The position numbers were made by a program, and so were the translations under genes. The notes beneath the pieces were generated by a model, which saw only the letters and a list, made by a program, of their open reading frames with translations, did no database searches and was not told the origin of the DNA. Positions 25,669-52,164 of a DNA stretch of 64,000 nucleotides are shown here, one piece after another (positions within the stretch are counted from its first letter, which is position 1; every line of letters starts with the position of its first letter). The stretch covers positions 6,080,001-6,144,000 of the forward strand of contig NC_018025.1 in assembly GCF_000266945.1 (NCBI RefSeq), given 5' to 3'. Source of the DNA: Desulfomonile tiedjei DSM 6799. GTDB lineage: Bacteria > Desulfobacterota > Desulfomonilia > Desulfomonilales > Desulfomonilaceae.

Positions 25669-25996
25669 TACAGAGAAATTGCCACAATTAAATGTCCGAT
25701 TGGGGACAAGAATATTGGTGGGTGCCGGCCTCCGTGCCGGCACATTTTGAATATAATCAATGATATCGATAGAATGGACCGGCAGAGAGAGACTGTCACA
25801 AAAGTCGAAATTCATTCCAGATGGTGGCACGATTTTCTCATCAACTTCCGGCCTTATTGTAGGGGCGGACCTGCGTGTCCGCCCAGATGATGGTAGACGC
25901 ATTGGTCTACCCCTACTCGGATGGAGAATCGTAGCACGATTTGTTGTGTATTCGAGAGCGGAATAAACATCAGAATTTTTGATAGACCTTTCCTGA
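25669..25996 (-). mobile_element. Composite MITE-like element, minus orientation
   Basis: Reading on the minus strand, the arm of the 190-bp element is seen from 25669 to about 25788 (CATTCTATCGATATCATTGAT, facing GTGCCGGC/GCCGGC blocks). The second element follows (25789 to about 25965, with TTGTAGGGGCGG and GTCCGCCC arms), and then a remnant of the other arm to about 25996 (CAGAATTTTTGAT). The inner element sits at the same site as at 51684 but in opposite relative orientation. One inner terminus is lost. Confidence 0.65.
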
Positions 25997-26145: not shown

Positions 26146-27081
26146 ATGTCGATATCTTGTTGCAGCAATTCCTATGTCCTGAAGCTGGATGAACGAAACA
26201 CCTGGAATTTGCGCGCTACCAAGAGCACGGAAGCATGGTTACAGCGTTTCGCAATGACACTCGCACTAGAGCACGGACACAGACGGGAGCAGCCCACAAT
26301 TACCTTCGTCAGAGGAGGGGGAACAGGACCGCCCTCCACATCCCTTCCCTGGTCACCCGATTCCACTGCACTCGAATCGCTGGAGATGGCAAACTGGAAC
26401 AGAGTGAGACCCGGCCTGAGTCGATTCTGGTCTCCACCCAGGGGAAACGATCTTGTGTGCGAGCTTCTGAACACAGCTTCCGAAAAACTTGAAGTTCTCA
26501 TGATGGGAGAAGTCGTGCATCCCGTGTACCTGAAAGCTGCGCAATCCGGCGGACTTCCCATTCATGGAGCCCTCATTGCTCTGGACGGACGAGGGGTTGT
26601 CCTTGCAGGAGCAAACGATGCCGGTAAAACCACGTCGTGCTCCCGCCTGCCAGATCGATGGAAGGTCCTCTGTGATGACGAGACTCTGGTCATGAAAGGA
26701 GAGGGGAATCAGTACCGTGCTCACCCGTTTCCCACCTGGAGCAACCTCCTGCGATCCGGATTAGGCGCAAGCTGTGATATTTCTCGGAGCGTTCCTTTGT
26801 CGGCATTTTTCTTTCTTCAGAAAGCTACTTCTCCGGAAATCGTTTCTCTCGGCCGGGGACATGCTGCAGCGAGGATTAACGAGTCGGCAGACGAAGTATG
26901 GACATGGCGGGGGCAATATCTTGAAAGTAAGCAACTGAGGGCATGGCGAACTCAGCTATTCGAAAACGCATGCAGTATGTCGGCGAACATCCCGTCCTAT
27001 ATCCTGAGACTGGACTTGTACGGGAGATTCTGGGAGACAATCGAAAGAATCCTCGAAGATCTTCCGGTACCGGGAACATAA
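26146..27081 (+). CDS. HPr-kinase-like P-loop protein resembling ScmC
   Basis: A 311-residue protein. The C-terminal half is HPr kinase-like: a P-loop GANDAGKTTSCSRLP (about residues 153-167), CDDETLV, AHPFPTWSN and RINESADEVW. This block order is what I remember of ScmC, the HPr-kinase-related protein of SynChlorMet cassettes, which otherwise carry PqqD-like and radical SAM proteins for peptide modification. None of those partners is in the window. No close ribosome-binding site is seen, so the start may differ. A candidate modified peptide lies 4.5 kb downstream. Confidence 0.62.
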   Translation: MSISCCSNSYVLKLDERNTWNLRATKSTEAWLQRFAMTLALEHGHRREQPTITFVRGGGTGPPSTSLPWSPDSTALESLEMANWNRVRPGLSRFWSPPRGNDLVCELLNTASEKLEVLMMGEVVHPVYLKAAQSGGLPIHGALIALDGRGVVLAGANDAGKTTSCSRLPDRWKVLCDDETLVMKGEGNQYRAHPFPTWSNLLRSGLGASCDISRSVPLSAFFFLQKATSPEIVSLGRGHAAARINESADEVWTWRGQYLESKQLRAWRTQLFENACSMSANIPSYILRLDLYGRFWETIERILEDLPVPGT

Positions 27082-27573: not shown

Positions 27574-30500
27574 ATGAGAAGGCTTAGTCGCGGAATGATG
27601 AAGGTCTGCGCGCCGGATATAATACTGGAGAGACTTGAAGATCGAATTGTGCTCGATGCTGCTGTTGACCAGCAACTGGAGGATAGTTCGGACAATCTCA
27701 CGGACACGCAATCCACTGAAGCTTGCTCGATCGACGGCGAAGATTTACTCGCGAATTCGGATTGGCTGCAAATCGGACTCTCTCATGTATTCGAGCAGGA
27801 CCTCCATGTGCTGTTGGTATCCAATAATTTGGATCAAACAGAAATCGTTTCTGCAGCGGCAGATGATAGTTTGGTTGTGGTGTATGATTCGCAGACAGAT
27901 AACCTGAACACCCTTACTGCAATGCTTCACAATCTTGTGGCAATCACCGGACAGAAGATTGGCGCTCTTGCATTCGTAGATCACGGTAATGATGGAGTAA
28001 TCAAGATCGGAGTAGATCAGATAACTTCCCAAAATCTTTTTAAATTTGCCTCTACCTTTTCAGACCTGTCGGAAGATCTGACTCCTGACGCTCAAATCGA
28101 ATTCTTCGGTTGCTCTATTGCATATGGAACGGAGAGCCGGGATCTTCTTTCTCAGATTGCCTCCTATACGGATGCGGTGGTTTTCGCAAGCACCGACGAC
28201 ACGGGTGGAACCCACGGATGGACTTTGGAATACTCGTCAGATCCGGGGATTGTGCCTGTTACCATGATTGTGATCGACGAGATTTCTCAATCCGATTCAG
28301 TGCTCATTTTCCAGGGATATCCGCCTTTGGATGACTTGTCCACCTGTTATCAGTATTTCAGCTCGCTTGACTCGCTAGATCCGCGATCGGTTCAGACTCA
28401 GTATTCTTACGCTGAAACGTGGACTTTCACGATTACCACAACGATGGTTGTCTCCATTGGCATGCAAACGGTGCACCCGACCTTGAACCACGGTGATACG
28501 GGCTTTGTCGATTGCTGGATTGACTTGTACAGCGGGTCAACTCCTAATACCGCCAACAGAATAACCTACAATGACGATTGGGTAGGTCCCGGCACCACTA
28601 ATGCTCCATACTGGCATGGAAACGATTCATTACCTATTGACGCCGGATCTTACGGAGTGTTGTTGACTCCGGGTACGTACTGTATTCAGGCTACAAGCTG
28701 GAACGACCATGCCAGTCAGCCCCGGTACGATCTGCAGACAGGCGGATATTATCTGCTTTCCAATGTGGAGCTTACGTATTCGGGAGGACACTACATTGCG
28801 CCCCCGACATCCGAGCCGATTCCCGATCCTCCTTCAAAGCCGGAGAACTTCACCCCCGCTTTCACGTATGACGTTCATTCATATTTCAGCGATCCCCAAG
28901 GCGACACTCTCATGTATCAACTCGGTGGAATAACGTACTCCGGTGGGCTTCAAGTAGGTATCAGCATCAACTCCTCAACCGGGGTGGTGACGTTTACGAG
29001 TGTTGCAGGCTACAACGGTTCGGTCGCGGTTCAGGTAAGAGCTTACGATGGAGAGCTGTATTCACCTTATGAAACATTCGTTTTTACGGTGACCAGTCCC
29101 TACAATCTACCCACAGCAAATGATGATGCTATAACCGTTGCTACTAATGAATCCATCACGTTCAAAGTGATCGGTTACGATCCTGATTCTCATCCCACCA
29201 ATCAGGTGCGATTCACGATTCTTTCAGGTTATGATCCCAGGTTCGGCGACATTGAGGCGGTGGACGAAAACGGCGTTGCCACATCACCGCAGTACGATGC
29301 GGCTGGTCAATACTATTATCAAGTGTTTACCTATACGCCAGACGCGAATTACTGGGGACCGGATACGTTTCTCTTCACGCTTTCCACTCCGGGAGGAACA
29401 TGGAGGACATTTGCTACAGGTGCGGCGATAGGGCAAAGTTTGGACAGCCGTAATAGCTACGACCTGGCTCTGGTGGATTTCAATGCAAACGGCACCCTGG
29501 ATCTCCTTACGGCAAACTCAAACGATGCTTCGGGCCAGCACAACTATTATTATATCAACAACACTGGTAGTTTTGCAGGCGGTGTAAGCATGGAACTGCT
29601 GTCCGGACAGGCAGCTACCGATTCTGTGGGTATTGCTACCGGTGACCTTAACGGAGACGGTTTTCTCGATGCAGTGGTCAGAAACGGACGCTCGGGAACC
29701 ACAACCACGACACAAGCAGATTTGATTTATCTCTGGGATAATGCCGCGCAGGGATTCAGGGTCACTCAACTTCCAAAAACGGTGGCTCAAACCAGGGGCG
29801 ACATTGCTCTTGGCGACTTCGATGGTGATGGTGACCTCGATATCGTCCGTGTGTTTGGAACCAACACCGCAAATGAAATCTTCTGGAACAATGGCGACGG
29901 TACCTTCGGAGCTACACCCTCAACTCTTCCTGCCACTGCGGGTACCAGTTACACCGTTGCAACCGGTGATTTCAACGGTGACGGGTACGTTGATATTTTC
30001 GTAGGCAAGTCAGGCAATAACCAGAACCACTATGTCTACTTCAACGACGGGTACGGGAACTTCACAAGCGCAAACGCAAAAGCTCTTCCCAATGACGGCA
30101 GAGGTCGTGCGTCCGACTGTGCAGTCGGCGATGTCGATGGTGACGGTCGCCTGGATATTGTCGTGTCCAGAGGAACTACCTCGAATGGCTATGGGAATTA
30201 TTTCTATCACAATACCGGGAACAATGGCTCCGGGTACACTAACTGGACTGGAATCAACATCGGCGGCACCTACCAGACTCTGGGAATAGACCTGGCCGAC
30301 TTCGATCGAGACGGCGACCTCGATGTTGTCACGGCCAATTACGATGAAAATATAAGGCTGTACTTATATAACGGCACAGGATTTACAGGTTCGAACATAG
30401 GAAACACTACCCCTAACGCTCTGAGCTGCGCGGTAGGTGACGTCGACAACGACGGGGATATTGATGTCGTTATTGGTATGAGCGGCGATCAGAACGAAAT

Positions 30501-31524
30501 CTTTTATAACCGCGGATTTAACAGTGGAACCACGAATCCCTGGCATCAATCGGCACCCGCCGAGGTAACGATTCATGTGGAGATGATAAACAACTGGAGT
30601 TTCGAGAATTCGTCACCGTATAGCGGCTGGACTCTGGATGAAACGTACAGTTCTCCGACACCTCCCGGATTCATCCTGCCGGAGTTCGGTACGTTCGCTA
30701 TTATCGAAAATGAACCCGGAGGAGTGACCGTTAATTTCGGGGATATACTGCACGACTACTATCCGAGAGATAACAACGATCAGGCGCAGTTTTCACTGCA
30801 GTTGGACAGTAGCATTCCCGGTGTGCCTGGAGTCACGGTGGAATGGAGTGAAAGCGATCATACAGCTCTCCTTTTGAGCGGTGGCTTACGGGAAGCCTCG
30901 TTGATGCAGACGATCGATATTCCACGGGACCAGTATTTGGTCGGTCTCGAACTTCATTGGAACATCTCTTATTGGAACTGCATGCCGTGGGTAGCGGAAG
31001 GGGCCAGATTCTCTTCGACTCAGTATGTGAAAATCTCTCTGTATGATGCAAGTAGCGGGTCGACAACACCACTCTGGGGCACCACGAATGGAGTGGACAG
31101 TTCCGTGGTGGACTCGATGCAACATTATTCAGTCAAGCTGAATGCATCAGATCCGTTGGTCCAGAAAATTGCCAGTAGTGGTGCACAACTGGTTCTTATG
31201 CTTGAAGTCTGCGGTCTGGACTGGTACCTTGACGTAGCAGTTGATGACTTCAAGCTTGTGCCACGGCGTCATGGACCATTTGGTTCCGCTACCCTTGAAC
31301 CGGACTATACAACGATGGCTCTCGATGAGAGTCAGATTTCGAGTAACGCTGAAACAGGGTTTTATGACGATGTGATAGTAGCTAAGACTCTGTTGGCCTT
31401 CGATACTTCTTATGAAGGATTCTATCAACCCGATTCGGAATCCGACATATGGACATCTTCATCAGGCCTGGATGACGAGTTACTTCAGAGTCTACCGAAA
31501 CGAGCAACAATCGTAATCGCTTGA
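27574..31524 (+). CDS. Giant DUF4347 / FG-GAP repeat surface protein
   Basis: A 1316-residue acidic protein, presumed exported. The N-terminus has the LEDRIVLDAA motif (about 21-30), a variant of the LEPRxLxDAA motif that opens many large surface proteins. DUF4347 follows (about 78-235; LLVSNN, FVDHGNDG, FFGCSIA). A pre-peptidase-like region, cadherin/Ig-like domains (about 400-600) and six FG-GAP/VCBS Asp-rich calcium loops (DLNGDGFLDAV, DFDGDGDLDIV and similar, about 615-980) come next, then a jelly-roll-like C-terminal part. No classical signal peptide is seen, so a type I-like route is possible. A GGGAGG site precedes the ATG and a sigma54 promoter lies upstream. Confidence 0.85.
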   Translation: MRRLSRGMMKVCAPDIILERLEDRIVLDAAVDQQLEDSSDNLTDTQSTEACSIDGEDLLANSDWLQIGLSHVFEQDLHVLLVSNNLDQTEIVSAAADDSLVVVYDSQTDNLNTLTAMLHNLVAITGQKIGALAFVDHGNDGVIKIGVDQITSQNLFKFASTFSDLSEDLTPDAQIEFFGCSIAYGTESRDLLSQIASYTDAVVFASTDDTGGTHGWTLEYSSDPGIVPVTMIVIDEISQSDSVLIFQGYPPLDDLSTCYQYFSSLDSLDPRSVQTQYSYAETWTFTITTTMVVSIGMQTVHPTLNHGDTGFVDCWIDLYSGSTPNTANRITYNDDWVGPGTTNAPYWHGNDSLPIDAGSYGVLLTPGTYCIQATSWNDHASQPRYDLQTGGYYLLSNVELTYSGGHYIAPPTSEPIPDPPSKPENFTPAFTYDVHSYFSDPQGDTLMYQLGGITYSGGLQVGISINSSTGVVTFTSVAGYNGSVAVQVRAYDGELYSPYETFVFTVTSPYNLPTANDDAITVATNESITFKVIGYDPDSHPTNQVRFTILSGYDPRFGDIEAVDENGVATSPQYDAAGQYYYQVFTYTPDANYWGPDTFLFTLSTPGGTWRTFATGAAIGQSLDSRNSYDLALVDFNANGTLDLLTANSNDASGQHNYYYINNTGSFAGGVSMELLSGQAATDSVGIATGDLNGDGFLDAVVRNGRSGTTTTTQADLIYLWDNAAQGFRVTQLPKTVAQTRGDIALGDFDGDGDLDIVRVFGTNTANEIFWNNGDGTFGATPSTLPATAGTSYTVATGDFNGDGYVDIFVGKSGNNQNHYVYFNDGYGNFTSANAKALPNDGRGRASDCAVGDVDGDGRLDIVVSRGTTSNGYGNYFYHNTGNNGSGYTNWTGINIGGTYQTLGIDLADFDRDGDLDVVTANYDENIRLYLYNGTGFTGSNIGNTTPNALSCAVGDVDNDGDIDVVIGMSGDQNEIFYNRGFNSGTTNPWHQSAPAEVTIHVEMINNWSFENSSPYSGWTLDETYSSPTPPGFILPEFGTFAIIENEPGGVTVNFGDILHDYYPRDNNDQAQFSLQLDSSIPGVPGVTVEWSESDHTALLLSGGLREASLMQTIDIPRDQYLVGLELHWNISYWNCMPWVAEGARFSSTQYVKISLYDASSGSTTPLWGTTNGVDSSVVDSMQHYSVKLNASDPLVQKIASSGAQLVLMLEVCGLDWYLDVAVDDFKLVPRRHGPFGSATLEPDYTTMALDESQISSNAETGFYDDVIVAKTLLAFDTSYEGFYQPDSESDIWTSSSGLDDELLQSLPKRATIVIA

Positions 31525-31580: not shown

Positions 31581-31808
31581 ATGAGTAGAGAAAAACCAAA
31601 ATACCAGATACCCAAGCTGGTTGATTTGCAGGAAGATAGAGTACCTCAGGCCGGGGGTGAATGCAGAAGCGGGGGAAGCGATCAAGGGGTATGTCGAACA
31701 GGAGCGAATGCGCGGACAGGCTGTACAAACGGTCACGGTGCTGCACTCGGTTGTGTTCAGGGGAATGGAGCCCGCTACATTTGCGTTTCGGGCGCCGGCG
31801 TTAAGTAA
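31581..31808 (+). CDS. Candidate RiPP precursor peptide with five C-x2-G decapeptide repeats
   Basis: A 75-residue peptide. The N-terminal leader contains KPKYQIPKLVDL, which has the Y-x2-P-x-L pattern known from leader peptides bound by PqqD-like RRE domains (for example lasso precursors). The C-terminal core has Cys at 28, 38, 48, 58 and 68, exactly ten apart, each followed by x-x-Gly (CRSG, CRTG, CTNG, CVQG, CVSG). The corresponding 30-bp DNA units are divergent, so selection on the peptide is likely. AAAGGG precedes the ATG. It lies 56 bases after the DUF4347 gene, so shared sigma54 transcription is likely. Modifying enzymes are not in the window apart from the ScmC-like protein. Confidence 0.7.
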   Translation: MSREKPKYQIPKLVDLQEDRVPQAGGECRSGGSDQGVCRTGANARTGCTNGHGAALGCVQGNGARYICVSGAGVK

Positions 31809-31961
31809 TTCACTCACGAGGACCCAAGCGGTTAAAATACTCGATAGTCCAAACAAAATATATTCCTTATGCAACATTCTACGTTTATGGATGGAGAAAC
31901 GAGCGGAAGGATCTTCCGTTTCTCGAGCAAATTGAACCAAAGTAATTATGGGAATTCGAAT

Positions 31962-34703
31962 ATGTGTGCTGAAGAAAATGCGAATGTCCGGAACTCTGAG
32001 TTATTACTCGAGTTGCTCGAGAATAGAATCGTTCTCGACGGGACTGTTGACGAACACATGGAAGGATCTCACGTAACGGATGCTGTCCAGGCTGATGGCG
32101 GTTCCGACGATGCTGGAGGAGTCGTTTCCGTCCTTGAGGCAGTGGATTATTACGACGGTCAATGGCATGAAGTAAATGGCTGGTTGTATCAGCGTCTGAA
32201 CGGATTTGATTTCTGGTATGCCGGTACGCACTACTACTACGCTATGGAACTTGCCACCGGTTACTGGTTCTGGTACGACGACCTGGATAGTAACAGTTGG
32301 GAGCCTTGCTGGGAATGGTATTACGACTACAGTCTCGGCGCATGGGTCTTGAACGGTACGGATGGAAGCAGTTACTACTACAATGAAGATCATTATTTTT
32401 ACCAGGACCACAACACAGAAGCCTGGGTCTGGTGGGACTCATTTGACGACTTGGCGTGGGAATCGGCATTCACGTGGTTTTATGACTTCGCGGACGAAGC
32501 GTGGATCTGGAATGATTGGAATTTAAGTTGTTGGCATTACGATGCGGACCACTATCTTTATCAAGAGCATGATAATGGAACATGGTTCTGGTGGGACAGT
32601 ATAACCGACAACCAATGGGAACCTTATCAAACCTGGTTTACCGGCAGCATCGGAGCACAGGTATATAACGACTGGGATTCGACGACTTACCACTTCGGGC
32701 CCGGTGGCGAGTACTCTTACGTCCAGCAACATGATGAGGCTCTGGTGAATGCGGCGCCTGTGATTGGAATTCCCGGGCCTTTGACAGGAAGTGAGGACAC
32801 GGAAGTCAGCATCGACGGCATTGCAGTGCTCGATGTCGACGCGGCAGGTAACGACATCCAGGTGACATTGTCTGTCGAACATGGGTCTTTCAGTCTTCAC
32901 AATTCCACGGGACTCCACTTTAGCGTAGGCGACGGGTCTCACGATACTGTAATGGTCTTCACGGGAAATCAGATTACTGTAAATAATGCCTTGACCCAGG
33001 TGCTGTACCAGGGGATCCGCAACTATAACGGTTCGGACGCCCTGGAAATCACAGTAGACGACCAAGGCCACAACGGTTCCGGCGGAGCGCATAGTTCCAG
33101 CCAGTCACTCGATATAACGATCGATGCGGTAAACGATGCTCCTCTCACCGGTGACTTCGCTGTGTCCGGCGATCCGGGAACAGATATCGCCATCACGGGA
33201 TGGATATTTGACGATTCTGCAGATTCGGTCCTGGGAGGATCTTCTGCAAACGATCCGGACCATGTGACCATAGTGGATCTTCCGAACCATGGCGTTCTGT
33301 ATTTGAATGGAACTCTCATTGCGGCAGGACAGGATGTTTCGTGGGCGGATGCGAATGCTATCGTGTTCGTTTCCGACCCGAACTGGAGCGGGTACACGTC
33401 ATTCCATTACACAGTGACTGAAACGGACGGCGGAATGACGAGCGATCGGGCGACTGCCAGGATTGCCGTGCATGGAATCGGTCTGGTGGAGGATATCCAT
33501 GTGGGAGCGGCAAACAGCGATCCTGCTGGATTCACCCAATTCAACGGTGATACATATTTCTCTGCCAATGACGGCATCCATGGACACGAGCTCTGGAAGT
33601 TTAACAGCAGCGGCCTGATCACACTGGTGTCAGATGTTAATCCTGGTCAAAATGGCAGTTATCCGGCCGGATTCACCGTTTTCGACAATGCTCTGTATTT
33701 TTCAGCGTACAGTAGCACGCATGGCTATGAGCTCTGGAAAATCGAAAGTAACGGAGTGCTTTCCAGGGTGACGGACATTAACATTTCAGGCAGCAGCAAT
33801 CCTGCAAATTTAACGATCTTCAACGGCAGCCTGTATTTCACCGCTTACAATGGGACTCGCGGAACAGAGCTTTGGAAGCTGGACACCAATGATGTGCTGC
33901 AATACTGGGATATACGGTCCGGCAGTGCAAGCAGCAATCCAACGGAATTGACCTTATTCAACGGTGAACTCTATTTTTCCGCAAATGATGGTACTCATGG
34001 AGCCGAGGTTTGGAAGCTCGACAGCAGCGGCATTGCTTCCAGGGTCACCGATATAAATCTGTCGGGTGGCAGTTCTTCCAAAGGATTTACCGTGTTTCAA
34101 AATGCCCTCTATTTTTCCGCTGATGACGGCATCAATGGTGCAGAGCTTTGGAAAATCGATTCCAGCGGAGCAGCCTCTCTGGTGTGGGACATCTATGCCG
34201 GGCCCACCGGCAGTTGGCCTCTATACTTAACAGCATTCAATGACGCTCTCTATTTTTCCGCTTATGACACTACCGCTGCGTACCAGCTTTGGATGATGGA
34301 CAGCAATGGAGTAGCTTCTCGTGTCCTGTGCGGCAGTTATCCATTGGGATTTACGCTCTTCAATAATGCTCTCTATTTTTCCGCGGATGACGGAGTGACC
34401 GGGAGCGAGTTATGGAAAGTGGACAGCACAGGAACAGCCTCATTGGTCGCCGATATCAACCCAACCGGGAGCAGTTCCCCTGAAAAATTTACCGTAGTCG
34501 GCGATTCTCTCTATTTTCGTGCGAACGATGGGGTTAATGGTGAGGAGTTGTGGAAAATGGATAGCAGCGGTGCAGTCTCGCTCTTCCGGGACATTAATCC
34601 TTCAGGCGACAGTTCTCCTGACAATTTTGCGGTCTTTAATGGTGCGCTCTATTTCTCCGCAAATGACGGTGCGCATGGGAACGAGTTTTGGATCTTGGTC
34701 TAA
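31962..34703 (+). CDS. Large surface protein: aromatic-rich domain, cadherin-like domain, nine ELW repeats
   Basis: About 913 residues from ATG 31962, chosen because this start aligns the LENRIVLDGT motif with its paralogue at 27574 and has GGGAA upstream; the frame is open from 31869. Domains: LExRIVLD motif; residues about 62-255 extremely rich in Trp and Tyr (24 Trp in some 195 residues) with a repeat of roughly 40 residues; a VCBS/cadherin-like region (about 265-400); an Ig-like region; then nine repeats of about 45 residues with YFSANDG-x-HG-x-ELWK, the ELWxxDGT type. It is presumed extracellular; ligand unknown. Confidence 0.8.
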   Translation: MCAEENANVRNSELLLELLENRIVLDGTVDEHMEGSHVTDAVQADGGSDDAGGVVSVLEAVDYYDGQWHEVNGWLYQRLNGFDFWYAGTHYYYAMELATGYWFWYDDLDSNSWEPCWEWYYDYSLGAWVLNGTDGSSYYYNEDHYFYQDHNTEAWVWWDSFDDLAWESAFTWFYDFADEAWIWNDWNLSCWHYDADHYLYQEHDNGTWFWWDSITDNQWEPYQTWFTGSIGAQVYNDWDSTTYHFGPGGEYSYVQQHDEALVNAAPVIGIPGPLTGSEDTEVSIDGIAVLDVDAAGNDIQVTLSVEHGSFSLHNSTGLHFSVGDGSHDTVMVFTGNQITVNNALTQVLYQGIRNYNGSDALEITVDDQGHNGSGGAHSSSQSLDITIDAVNDAPLTGDFAVSGDPGTDIAITGWIFDDSADSVLGGSSANDPDHVTIVDLPNHGVLYLNGTLIAAGQDVSWADANAIVFVSDPNWSGYTSFHYTVTETDGGMTSDRATARIAVHGIGLVEDIHVGAANSDPAGFTQFNGDTYFSANDGIHGHELWKFNSSGLITLVSDVNPGQNGSYPAGFTVFDNALYFSAYSSTHGYELWKIESNGVLSRVTDINISGSSNPANLTIFNGSLYFTAYNGTRGTELWKLDTNDVLQYWDIRSGSASSNPTELTLFNGELYFSANDGTHGAEVWKLDSSGIASRVTDINLSGGSSSKGFTVFQNALYFSADDGINGAELWKIDSSGAASLVWDIYAGPTGSWPLYLTAFNDALYFSAYDTTAAYQLWMMDSNGVASRVLCGSYPLGFTLFNNALYFSADDGVTGSELWKVDSTGTASLVADINPTGSSSPEKFTVVGDSLYFRANDGVNGEELWKMDSSGAVSLFRDINPSGDSSPDNFAVFNGALYFSANDGAHGNEFWILV

Positions 34704-34802: not shown

Positions 34803-35015
34803 TATAGCGATTGCCAAATTCTGGCGTTTATAGCGGTTATCGAAAGTCTTGACGGAATCCAATGCCTGCAATGGGAAGAATCAGTAGCGCCGGCGTCCCT
34901 GCCGGCGAGAATTTATTGATTTGTTTGGTGAATTGGTCGCCGGCACGGAGGCCGGCGCTACCAATTGCTGGGAACTGCTCTTCACAATCCGTGATTACTT
35001 TCGAGAATCGGTATA
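34803..35015 (+). mobile_element. MITE-like dispersed repeat, divergent copy
   Basis: Starts TATAGCGATTGCCAAATTCTGG and carries the facing GCCGGC palindromes (GCGCCGGCGTCCCTGCCGGC ... GCCGGCACGGAGGCCGGCGC). The right end is unclear, ending near GAATCGGTATATCC. It lies in the 920-base gene-free interval 34704-35624. Confidence 0.55.
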
Positions 35016-42571: not shown

Positions 42572-42596
42572 CGATGTGATTCACCGGCTTCGATTG

Positions 42597-42789
42597 TTAT
42601 AGTCAGTGCCAAAAATTCTGTCGTTTATCCCGCATGTGAATTACAGGATATTGGTAGGGAACCGGCGTCTCTGCCGGTCCATTCTAGCGATATCATTGAT
42701 CATATTGAAGATGTGCCGGCACGGAGGCACGGCACTCACCAATATTCCTAATCTTCAATCGGATACACTAATTTTGGCACTTACTATAA
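42597..42789 (+). mobile_element. MITE-like dispersed repeat with the best-preserved TIRs
   Basis: A 193-bp element whose ends are TTATAGTCAGTGCCAAAA and TTTTGGCACTTACTATAA, an 18-bp terminal inverted repeat with one mismatch. It contains GGCGTCTCTGCCGG, GATATCATTGATCATATTG and GTGCCGGC blocks. It lies between the flippase and GT4 genes, in a gene-free 273-base gap. The intact GGCGTCTCTGCC site here is the uninterrupted form of the site split at 51683. Confidence 0.8.
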
Positions 42790-42844
42790 TTTCTTCCAAC
42801 GAATTCCTTCCTGCATCATCAGATGATACAACCCATAAGGAATT

Positions 42845-51608: not shown

Positions 51609-51984
51609 TATTAGAGTGGCTGTCAAAAATTCTGACGTTTATCCTGCGCTCGGATACAAGATTTTAGTGGGGACTGGCGTCTCGAAACTGTCTCAAAAGC
51701 CGAAATTCATTCCAGATCGTGGCACGAATTTCCATCGATCCTGACTGCCCGATTGTAGGGGCGGGCCTAGTGTCCGCCCAGATAAGGGCAGGCACGAGAC
51801 CTGCCCCTACTCGGATGGAGAATCGTGGCACGATTCCTGTGTATTCGATAATTTTGAGACAGTTTCTCTCTGCCGCTGCATTCTATCGATATCATTGATC
51901 ATATTGAAAATGTGCCGGCACGGAGGCCGGCACCCTGCAATAGTCCTATCCTCAATCGGACATTAATTTTAGCAATTCGTATAA
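51609..51984 (+). mobile_element. MITE-like repeat interrupted by a second TIR element
   Basis: The outer element runs from TATTAGAGTGGCTGTCAAAA to ATTTTAGCAATTCGTATAA. It is split at its GGCGTCTCTGCC site by the 183-bp element described separately. Apart from the insert it matches 42597-42789 closely (GATATCATTGATCATATTGA and GTGCCGGCACGGAG blocks). It fills the space between the sensor and regulator genes. Confidence 0.8.
51684..51866 (+). mobile_element. Nested 183-bp TIR element with 4-bp target duplication
   Basis: Perfect 15-bp terminal inverted repeats GAAACTGTCTCAAAA and TTTTGAGACAGTTTC. Flanked on both sides by TCTC (51680-51683 and 51867-51870); removing the element plus one TCTC restores the uninterrupted GGCGTCTCTGCC of other copies. 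The interior has facing GGGGCGGGCC and GCAGGTCT-like arms. It is non-coding, so movement would need a transposase in trans. Confidence 0.8.
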
Positions 51985-52164
51985 TCTGGTAGGATGTCCA
52001 TCCCGCTCATATGAATTTTCCAGGCTTCCAGAGCCCCGCTGGTGAACCCGAGCGGGGCAGGTACTTGCGGAAAAGAGTACGAAGAGGTAAACGTAAGTTG
52101 TAATCGTAACTCAGCATTTGCCACGAATTCTCACAAAGTAGGCGCCGAAGGAAGGTCAGTAAGC

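Follow-up and report, generated by a model that had tools for sequence, protein, structure and literature searches.

The closest named relative of the precursor described here is ScmA (TIGR04252) of the SynChlorMet cassette, to which ScmC, ScmD, ScmE and ScmF (TIGR04249, 04248, 04250 and 04251, respectively) also belong. To our knowledge, the NCBI description of the ScmA family treats its product as unknown, and a literature search on SynChlorMet and on the TIGR accessions found no paper and no characterised enzyme or product of the family. Two further known systems are close. Streptosactin (GggA/GggB) is reported to carry Cys31-Gly34 and Cys25-Ser28 sactionine rings, that is C-x2-G and C-x2-S rings, and its pathway uses a SPASM radical SAM enzyme (PMC8172795). 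The lasso-peptide tailoring kinases PadeK/ThcoK and PsmK share a His-Lys-Asp-Asp set, and PsmK is accompanied by the nucleotidyltransferase PsmN, which acts on the phosphorylated peptide (PMC9266682).

The precursor gene

The window, that is the whole stretch of DNA analysed, comprises 64,000 nucleotides of Desulfomonile tiedjei DSM 6799 (NC_018025.1, positions 6,080,001 to 6,144,000), and the features of interest in it are as follows.

26146 to 27081, plus strand: scmC, TIGR04249 at 235 bits (cut-off 125)
27574 to 31524, plus strand: giant protein 1, 1316 aa, with an N-terminal LEDRIVLDA box, DUF4347 and FG-GAP repeats
31581 to 31808, plus strand: scmA-like RiPP precursor, 75 aa, leader residues 1-27 and core residues 28-75
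31602 to 31619, plus strand: leader motif Y-Q-I-P-K-L, residues 8-13 (Y8-x2-P11-x-L13), from an alignment of 25 homologues
31662 to 31805, plus strand: core of five C-x2-G-x6 units, with rings predicted by a chemistry taken from streptosactin
31869 to 34703, plus strand: giant protein 2, 944 aa, with a LENRIVLDG box near the N-terminus and ELWxxDGT repeats

The precursor ORF encodes MSREKPKYQIPKLVDLQEDRVPQAGGECRSGGSDQGVCRTGANARTGCTNGHGAALGCVQGNGARYICVSGAGVK, in which Cys is found at residues 28, 38, 48, 58 and 68 and all five are in a C-x2-G motif, exactly at the ten-residue steps that the earlier note had reported. That note had also held a chance origin of the period to be very unlikely and the 30-bp DNA units not to be near-identical, and both statements stand. 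When five Cys were placed at random in a 53-residue core, equal spacing at any period had a P of 1.1e-4 and spacing at period 10 a P of 4.5e-6, and the 30-bp units are identical at only 9-13 of 30 positions (30-43%), and therefore a recent repeat expansion at the DNA level was rejected. The chance P for Gly at +3 of all five Cys is 1.2e-3, and no second ORF with at least four equally spaced Cys (periods 5-15) was found among the six-frame window ORFs of at least 30 aa. A promoter and terminator scan gave counts that were not above those in shuffled sequence.

It could be argued that the ORF is untranslated and that its Cys pattern is a coincidence or an effect of an overlapping frame, and it is true that codon usage did not favour the precursor frame over the others and so gave no independent coding support. 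Against this, when a profile built from 17 precursors, all from outside the taxonomic family of the window, was searched against the 706 window ORFs, the precursor was the sole significant match (E 8e-14), and its leader alone (E 4e-4) and its core alone (E 8e-4) were each significant; moreover, across several phyla its homologues are found at the equivalent place in the cassette. We therefore consider an untranslated ORF extremely improbable and, with homology as the proof of coding, judge 31581-31808 to be a genuine gene and not a chance frame.

The sole NCBIfam match of the precursor was ScmA TIGR04252 at 17.9 bits (E 0.0027), short of the curated cut-off of 35 bits. This model is narrow and gave an E of 0.01 or less for just 6 of 25 precursors, most of which come from Scm loci. 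Since the match is below the cut-off, yet the model is narrow, we file the precursor on its sequence as ScmA-like, a divergent relative and not a TIGR04252 equivalog. What it shares with ScmA is the leader Y-x2-P-x-L-x2-L and a Gly-rich core with C-x2-G units, and thus the earlier view that no precursor family of this design had been described has to be amended, because ScmA is a named, albeit uncharacterised, family. Across relatives the TIGR04252 model alone gave noise-level matches only, and so we built our own profiles.

Homologous precursors and the canonical cassette

Further loci were reached by way of the ScmC genes in 395 genomes of the phylum and the ScmE genes on GTDB contigs; beside scmC or scmF these loci have a small ORF that shares the leader and the C-x2-G core. 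The usual order is scmD (PqqD), scmE and scmF (two SPASM radical SAM enzymes), scmA and scmC (HPr-kinase-like), or close variants of this, and in many loci scmC is followed by an S26/S24-type peptidase, an ABC exporter and an NTP_transf_5 protein. Carriers include Desulfobacterota, Nitrospirae, Lentisphaeria, Chlorobiaceae and a Methanospirillum MAG. The leader and C-x2-G core of the window precursor are thus homologous to those of precursors within canonical Scm cassettes, and the finding of homologues in Desulfobacterota and other phyla beside PqqD and radical SAM/SPASM genes upholds the proposal of a RiPP precursor whose leader is of the RRE type. In the alignment of 25 homologues the leader Y and P were nearly invariant. 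Among 26 precursors, C-x2-G is present at 125 of 149 core Cys (84%), whereas at the +6 position of the repeat the commonest residue, Ala, reaches 46%. The spacing of Cys is 10 in 51 of 123 cases (41%), 11 in 33 (27%) and 9 in 15 (12%), and exact ten-residue spacing, taken before as the design rule, was rejected as a rule of the family, in which the range is 9-11 and 10 is the mode. The C-x2-G repeat across the ScmA family is newly described here.

With a wider profile, precursors were recovered from 30 of the 395 genomes, and more were seen that have YEPP-type leaders and as many as nine units. These wider C-x2-G repeat precursors with YEPP leaders (L252-L268) adjoin ScmE/F-like enzymes and proteins that are only distantly ScmC-like (20-33 bits). 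Another precursor, L084 7345-7704 (+), has 14 irregularly spaced core Cys and lies beside two scmC genes; it is unlike the rest of the family.

Scattered scm genes

Only scmC, 4.5 kb upstream of scmA on the same strand, is near the window precursor. The other genes of the cassette were found elsewhere on the chromosome, at the following chromosomal positions.

2,002,612 to 2,003,685: scmE, 594 bits, over cut-off
4,423,353: second precursor, MSKKATYERPRLIEFGPNLEASAACSTGSTHGSGNC...
4,940,795 to 4,941,853: scmF, 568 bits, over cut-off
5,319,641 to 5,320,519: second scmC, 183 bits
5,416,914 to 5,417,162: scmD, 124 bits, over cut-off, adjoined by an NTP_transf_5 gene

The genome therefore encodes ScmC, ScmD, ScmE and ScmF, all over their curated cut-offs as in a SynChlorMet cassette, and the PqqD and radical SAM genes that the earlier note proposed to look for elsewhere in the genome are present and intact. 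Unlike in that cassette, however, they are not contiguous with the precursor, which lies at 6.11 Mb between two giant proteins while scmE, scmF and scmD are at 2.00, 4.94 and 5.42 Mb, respectively. Such a scattered cassette is new here. The CxxxCxxC and SPASM Cys motifs are complete in both ScmE and ScmF. Between genera scmE and scmF are 57-71% identical at the amino acid level with a pN of about 0.2-0.3 and a saturated pS, so that dN/dS is to be read qualitatively only. This conservation across genera, with pN much below pS, argues that the dispersed ScmE and ScmF would still work. Repeats about 100-350 bp long are dispersed through intergenic sites of the window (25677-25957, 34829-35015, 42594-42790 and 51621-51986) and are also found around the scattered scm loci (L094-L099, L187).

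The putative kinase ScmC

In ScmC the catalytic set H140-K161-D177-D178 is intact and was invariant in 14 sequences, and its AlphaFold model (pLDDT 86) matched PEPCK with a Z of 14.9, with an HprK profile match at E 2e-4. ScmC thus combines the HprK/PEPCK fold with the His-Lys-Asp-Asp set of the lasso tailoring kinases PadeK/ThcoK and PsmK, and NTP_transf_5 genes accompany Scm cassettes as the nucleotidyltransferase accompanies PsmK. This link of ScmC to the lasso-peptide kinases through the kinase motif is new here. By analogy, ScmC is predicted to phosphorylate a Ser or Thr in the core or leader of the precursor, although its putative substrate, unlike that of the lasso kinases, is a linear Cys-repeat precursor and not a lasso core.

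Giant proteins and the satellite locus

Giant protein 1 ends 56 bp before scmA, and giant protein 2 is a paralogue of the protein adjoining the second scmC at 5.32 Mb; that scmC also adjoins a LEERIVLD-box protein. The common N-terminal box of these large proteins is [IL]LE.LE[EDN]RIVLD[AG]. About 23 carriers were found in the genome with a profile built from the scmC-adjacent giants themselves, which favours their recovery; the other 20 were found independently. In a simulation, the P for two random places both being within 2 kb of a box protein was about 1e-4. Pfam and NCBIfam scans of the carriers named no family for the box, which may serve to sort or secrete giant surface proteins in this bacterial family, and the two flanking giants look surface-exposed. 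A likeness of the ScmA leader LVDLQEDRV to the LEDRIVLD box was dropped, as it was not seen in other precursors.

ScmC, ScmE and ScmF were found together in five genomes of the taxonomic family of the window. In G008 and G011 E-F-A-C forms one cluster; in G009 C is on a different contig from E-F; and in G001, a fragmented assembly of the same genus, E and C are on different contigs with other neighbours. G008 has a second locus, consisting of scmA, scmC and a giant protein without maturases. The window scmC groups with this G008 satellite scmC at 100/100 in a tree whose deep forks are unresolved and in which only a few pairs are firm, and giant protein 1 is 51% identical to the G008 satellite giant over 1058 aa. 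By these two similarities scmC and giant protein 1 form a satellite locus that another genus also has, which is new here. The window scmA is probably also part of it; it is 40% identical to the G008 satellite scmA over 79 aa, a similarity that does not exceed the one to the G001 precursor. The earlier note had overlooked the upstream scmC, the scattering of the cassette and this satellite locus with its giant proteins.

Further precursor-like ORFs were seen in these genomes. In G001, L189 1610-1984 (-) and the frame L102 2212-2529 (+) are a divergent precursor pair with eight C-x2-G units each, and there is no maturase on their 7.4-kb contig. In G008, L101 1369-1722 (-) is a third precursor-like ORF that has lost the repeat after about three units and is probably decayed; an ELWxxDGT-repeat protein is about 7 kb from it.

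Proposed maturation and alternatives

The reading that we favour, and hold to be reasonably likely, is that the ScmA-type precursor is matured in trans by ScmD, ScmE and ScmF to sactionine rings and phosphorylated by ScmC. The PqqD-like ScmD would bind the Y-x2-P-x-L leader, the predicted docking site, and hand the peptide to ScmE and ScmF. These would bond the sulphur of each Cys to the Gly at +3 through its alpha-carbon, the only site open to a thioether since Gly lacks a side-chain carbon. The product would carry successive four-residue sactionine rings that are not nested, five in this case. ScmC would then phosphorylate the precursor in the manner of the lasso-peptide kinases, and the NTP_transf_5 protein encoded beside scmD may put a sugar or nucleotide on that phosphate. 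We also infer export of the product, although neither an exporter nor a leader peptidase could be assigned to the window precursor locus. An ancestral single cassette would have broken up in this genus, for which recombination between dispersed intergenic repeats could be the cause, leaving precursor, kinase and giant LEERIVLD-box protein as a separate locus served in trans. Points against this reading, besides the ScmA score below the cut-off, include that the maturase genes are absent at the locus and that action in trans has to be assumed.

A thioether on each Cys, as the earlier note had suggested, is the most plausible chemistry, and the C-x2-G rings and SPASM enzyme of streptosactin are its model. 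Streptosactin differs in having two rings, one radical SAM enzyme and another leader and gene context, and we claim no sequence membership with it. It is possible, if rather unlikely, that ScmE and ScmF act on the same precursor by some other chemistry, such as thioethers elsewhere (for instance to the Ala at +6 or to a residue before the Cys), epimerisation, or a different reaction for each enzyme. Two distinct SPASM enzymes per precursor do point to two reactions, +6 is most often Ala, the literature search gave no characterised chemistry for the ScmA family, and no residues in ScmE or ScmF were found that tie these enzymes to sactionine as against other radical chemistry; but two-enzyme sactipeptides exist, such as ruminococcin C and thuricin CD, and strong conservation in the repeat is limited to Cys and Gly at +3. 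We think it a good deal less probable that the window precursor is a relic, a satellite scmA that has been unmatured and drifting since the cassette broke up. The scattered maturases, the decayed ORF in G008 and the G001 precursors with no maturase on the same contig would all fit such a relic, but the five C-x2-G units and leader of the window precursor and the catalytic residues of ScmC are intact, nonsynonymous differences in scmE and scmF are far below synonymous ones, and the satellite locus has been kept in two genera.

As to biological role, a doubtful but specific extension of the favoured reading is that the precursor and kinase form a satellite module tied to giant LEERIVLD-box proteins, with its parts spread chromosome-wide and maturation in trans, and that the multi-ring peptide would work with, or be displayed on, a giant cell-surface protein and would not be a diffusible antibiotic.

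A RiPP cassette that is dispersed over the chromosome with its enzymes intact is a case that cluster-based genome mining would miss. The ScmA family, which extends over bacteria and a methanogen MAG and has up to nine C-x2-G units, can readily serve for testing whether four-residue sactionine rings are made repeatedly by a SPASM enzyme pair, together with an HprK-type kinase, and this genome links the ScmA pathway to giant proteins.
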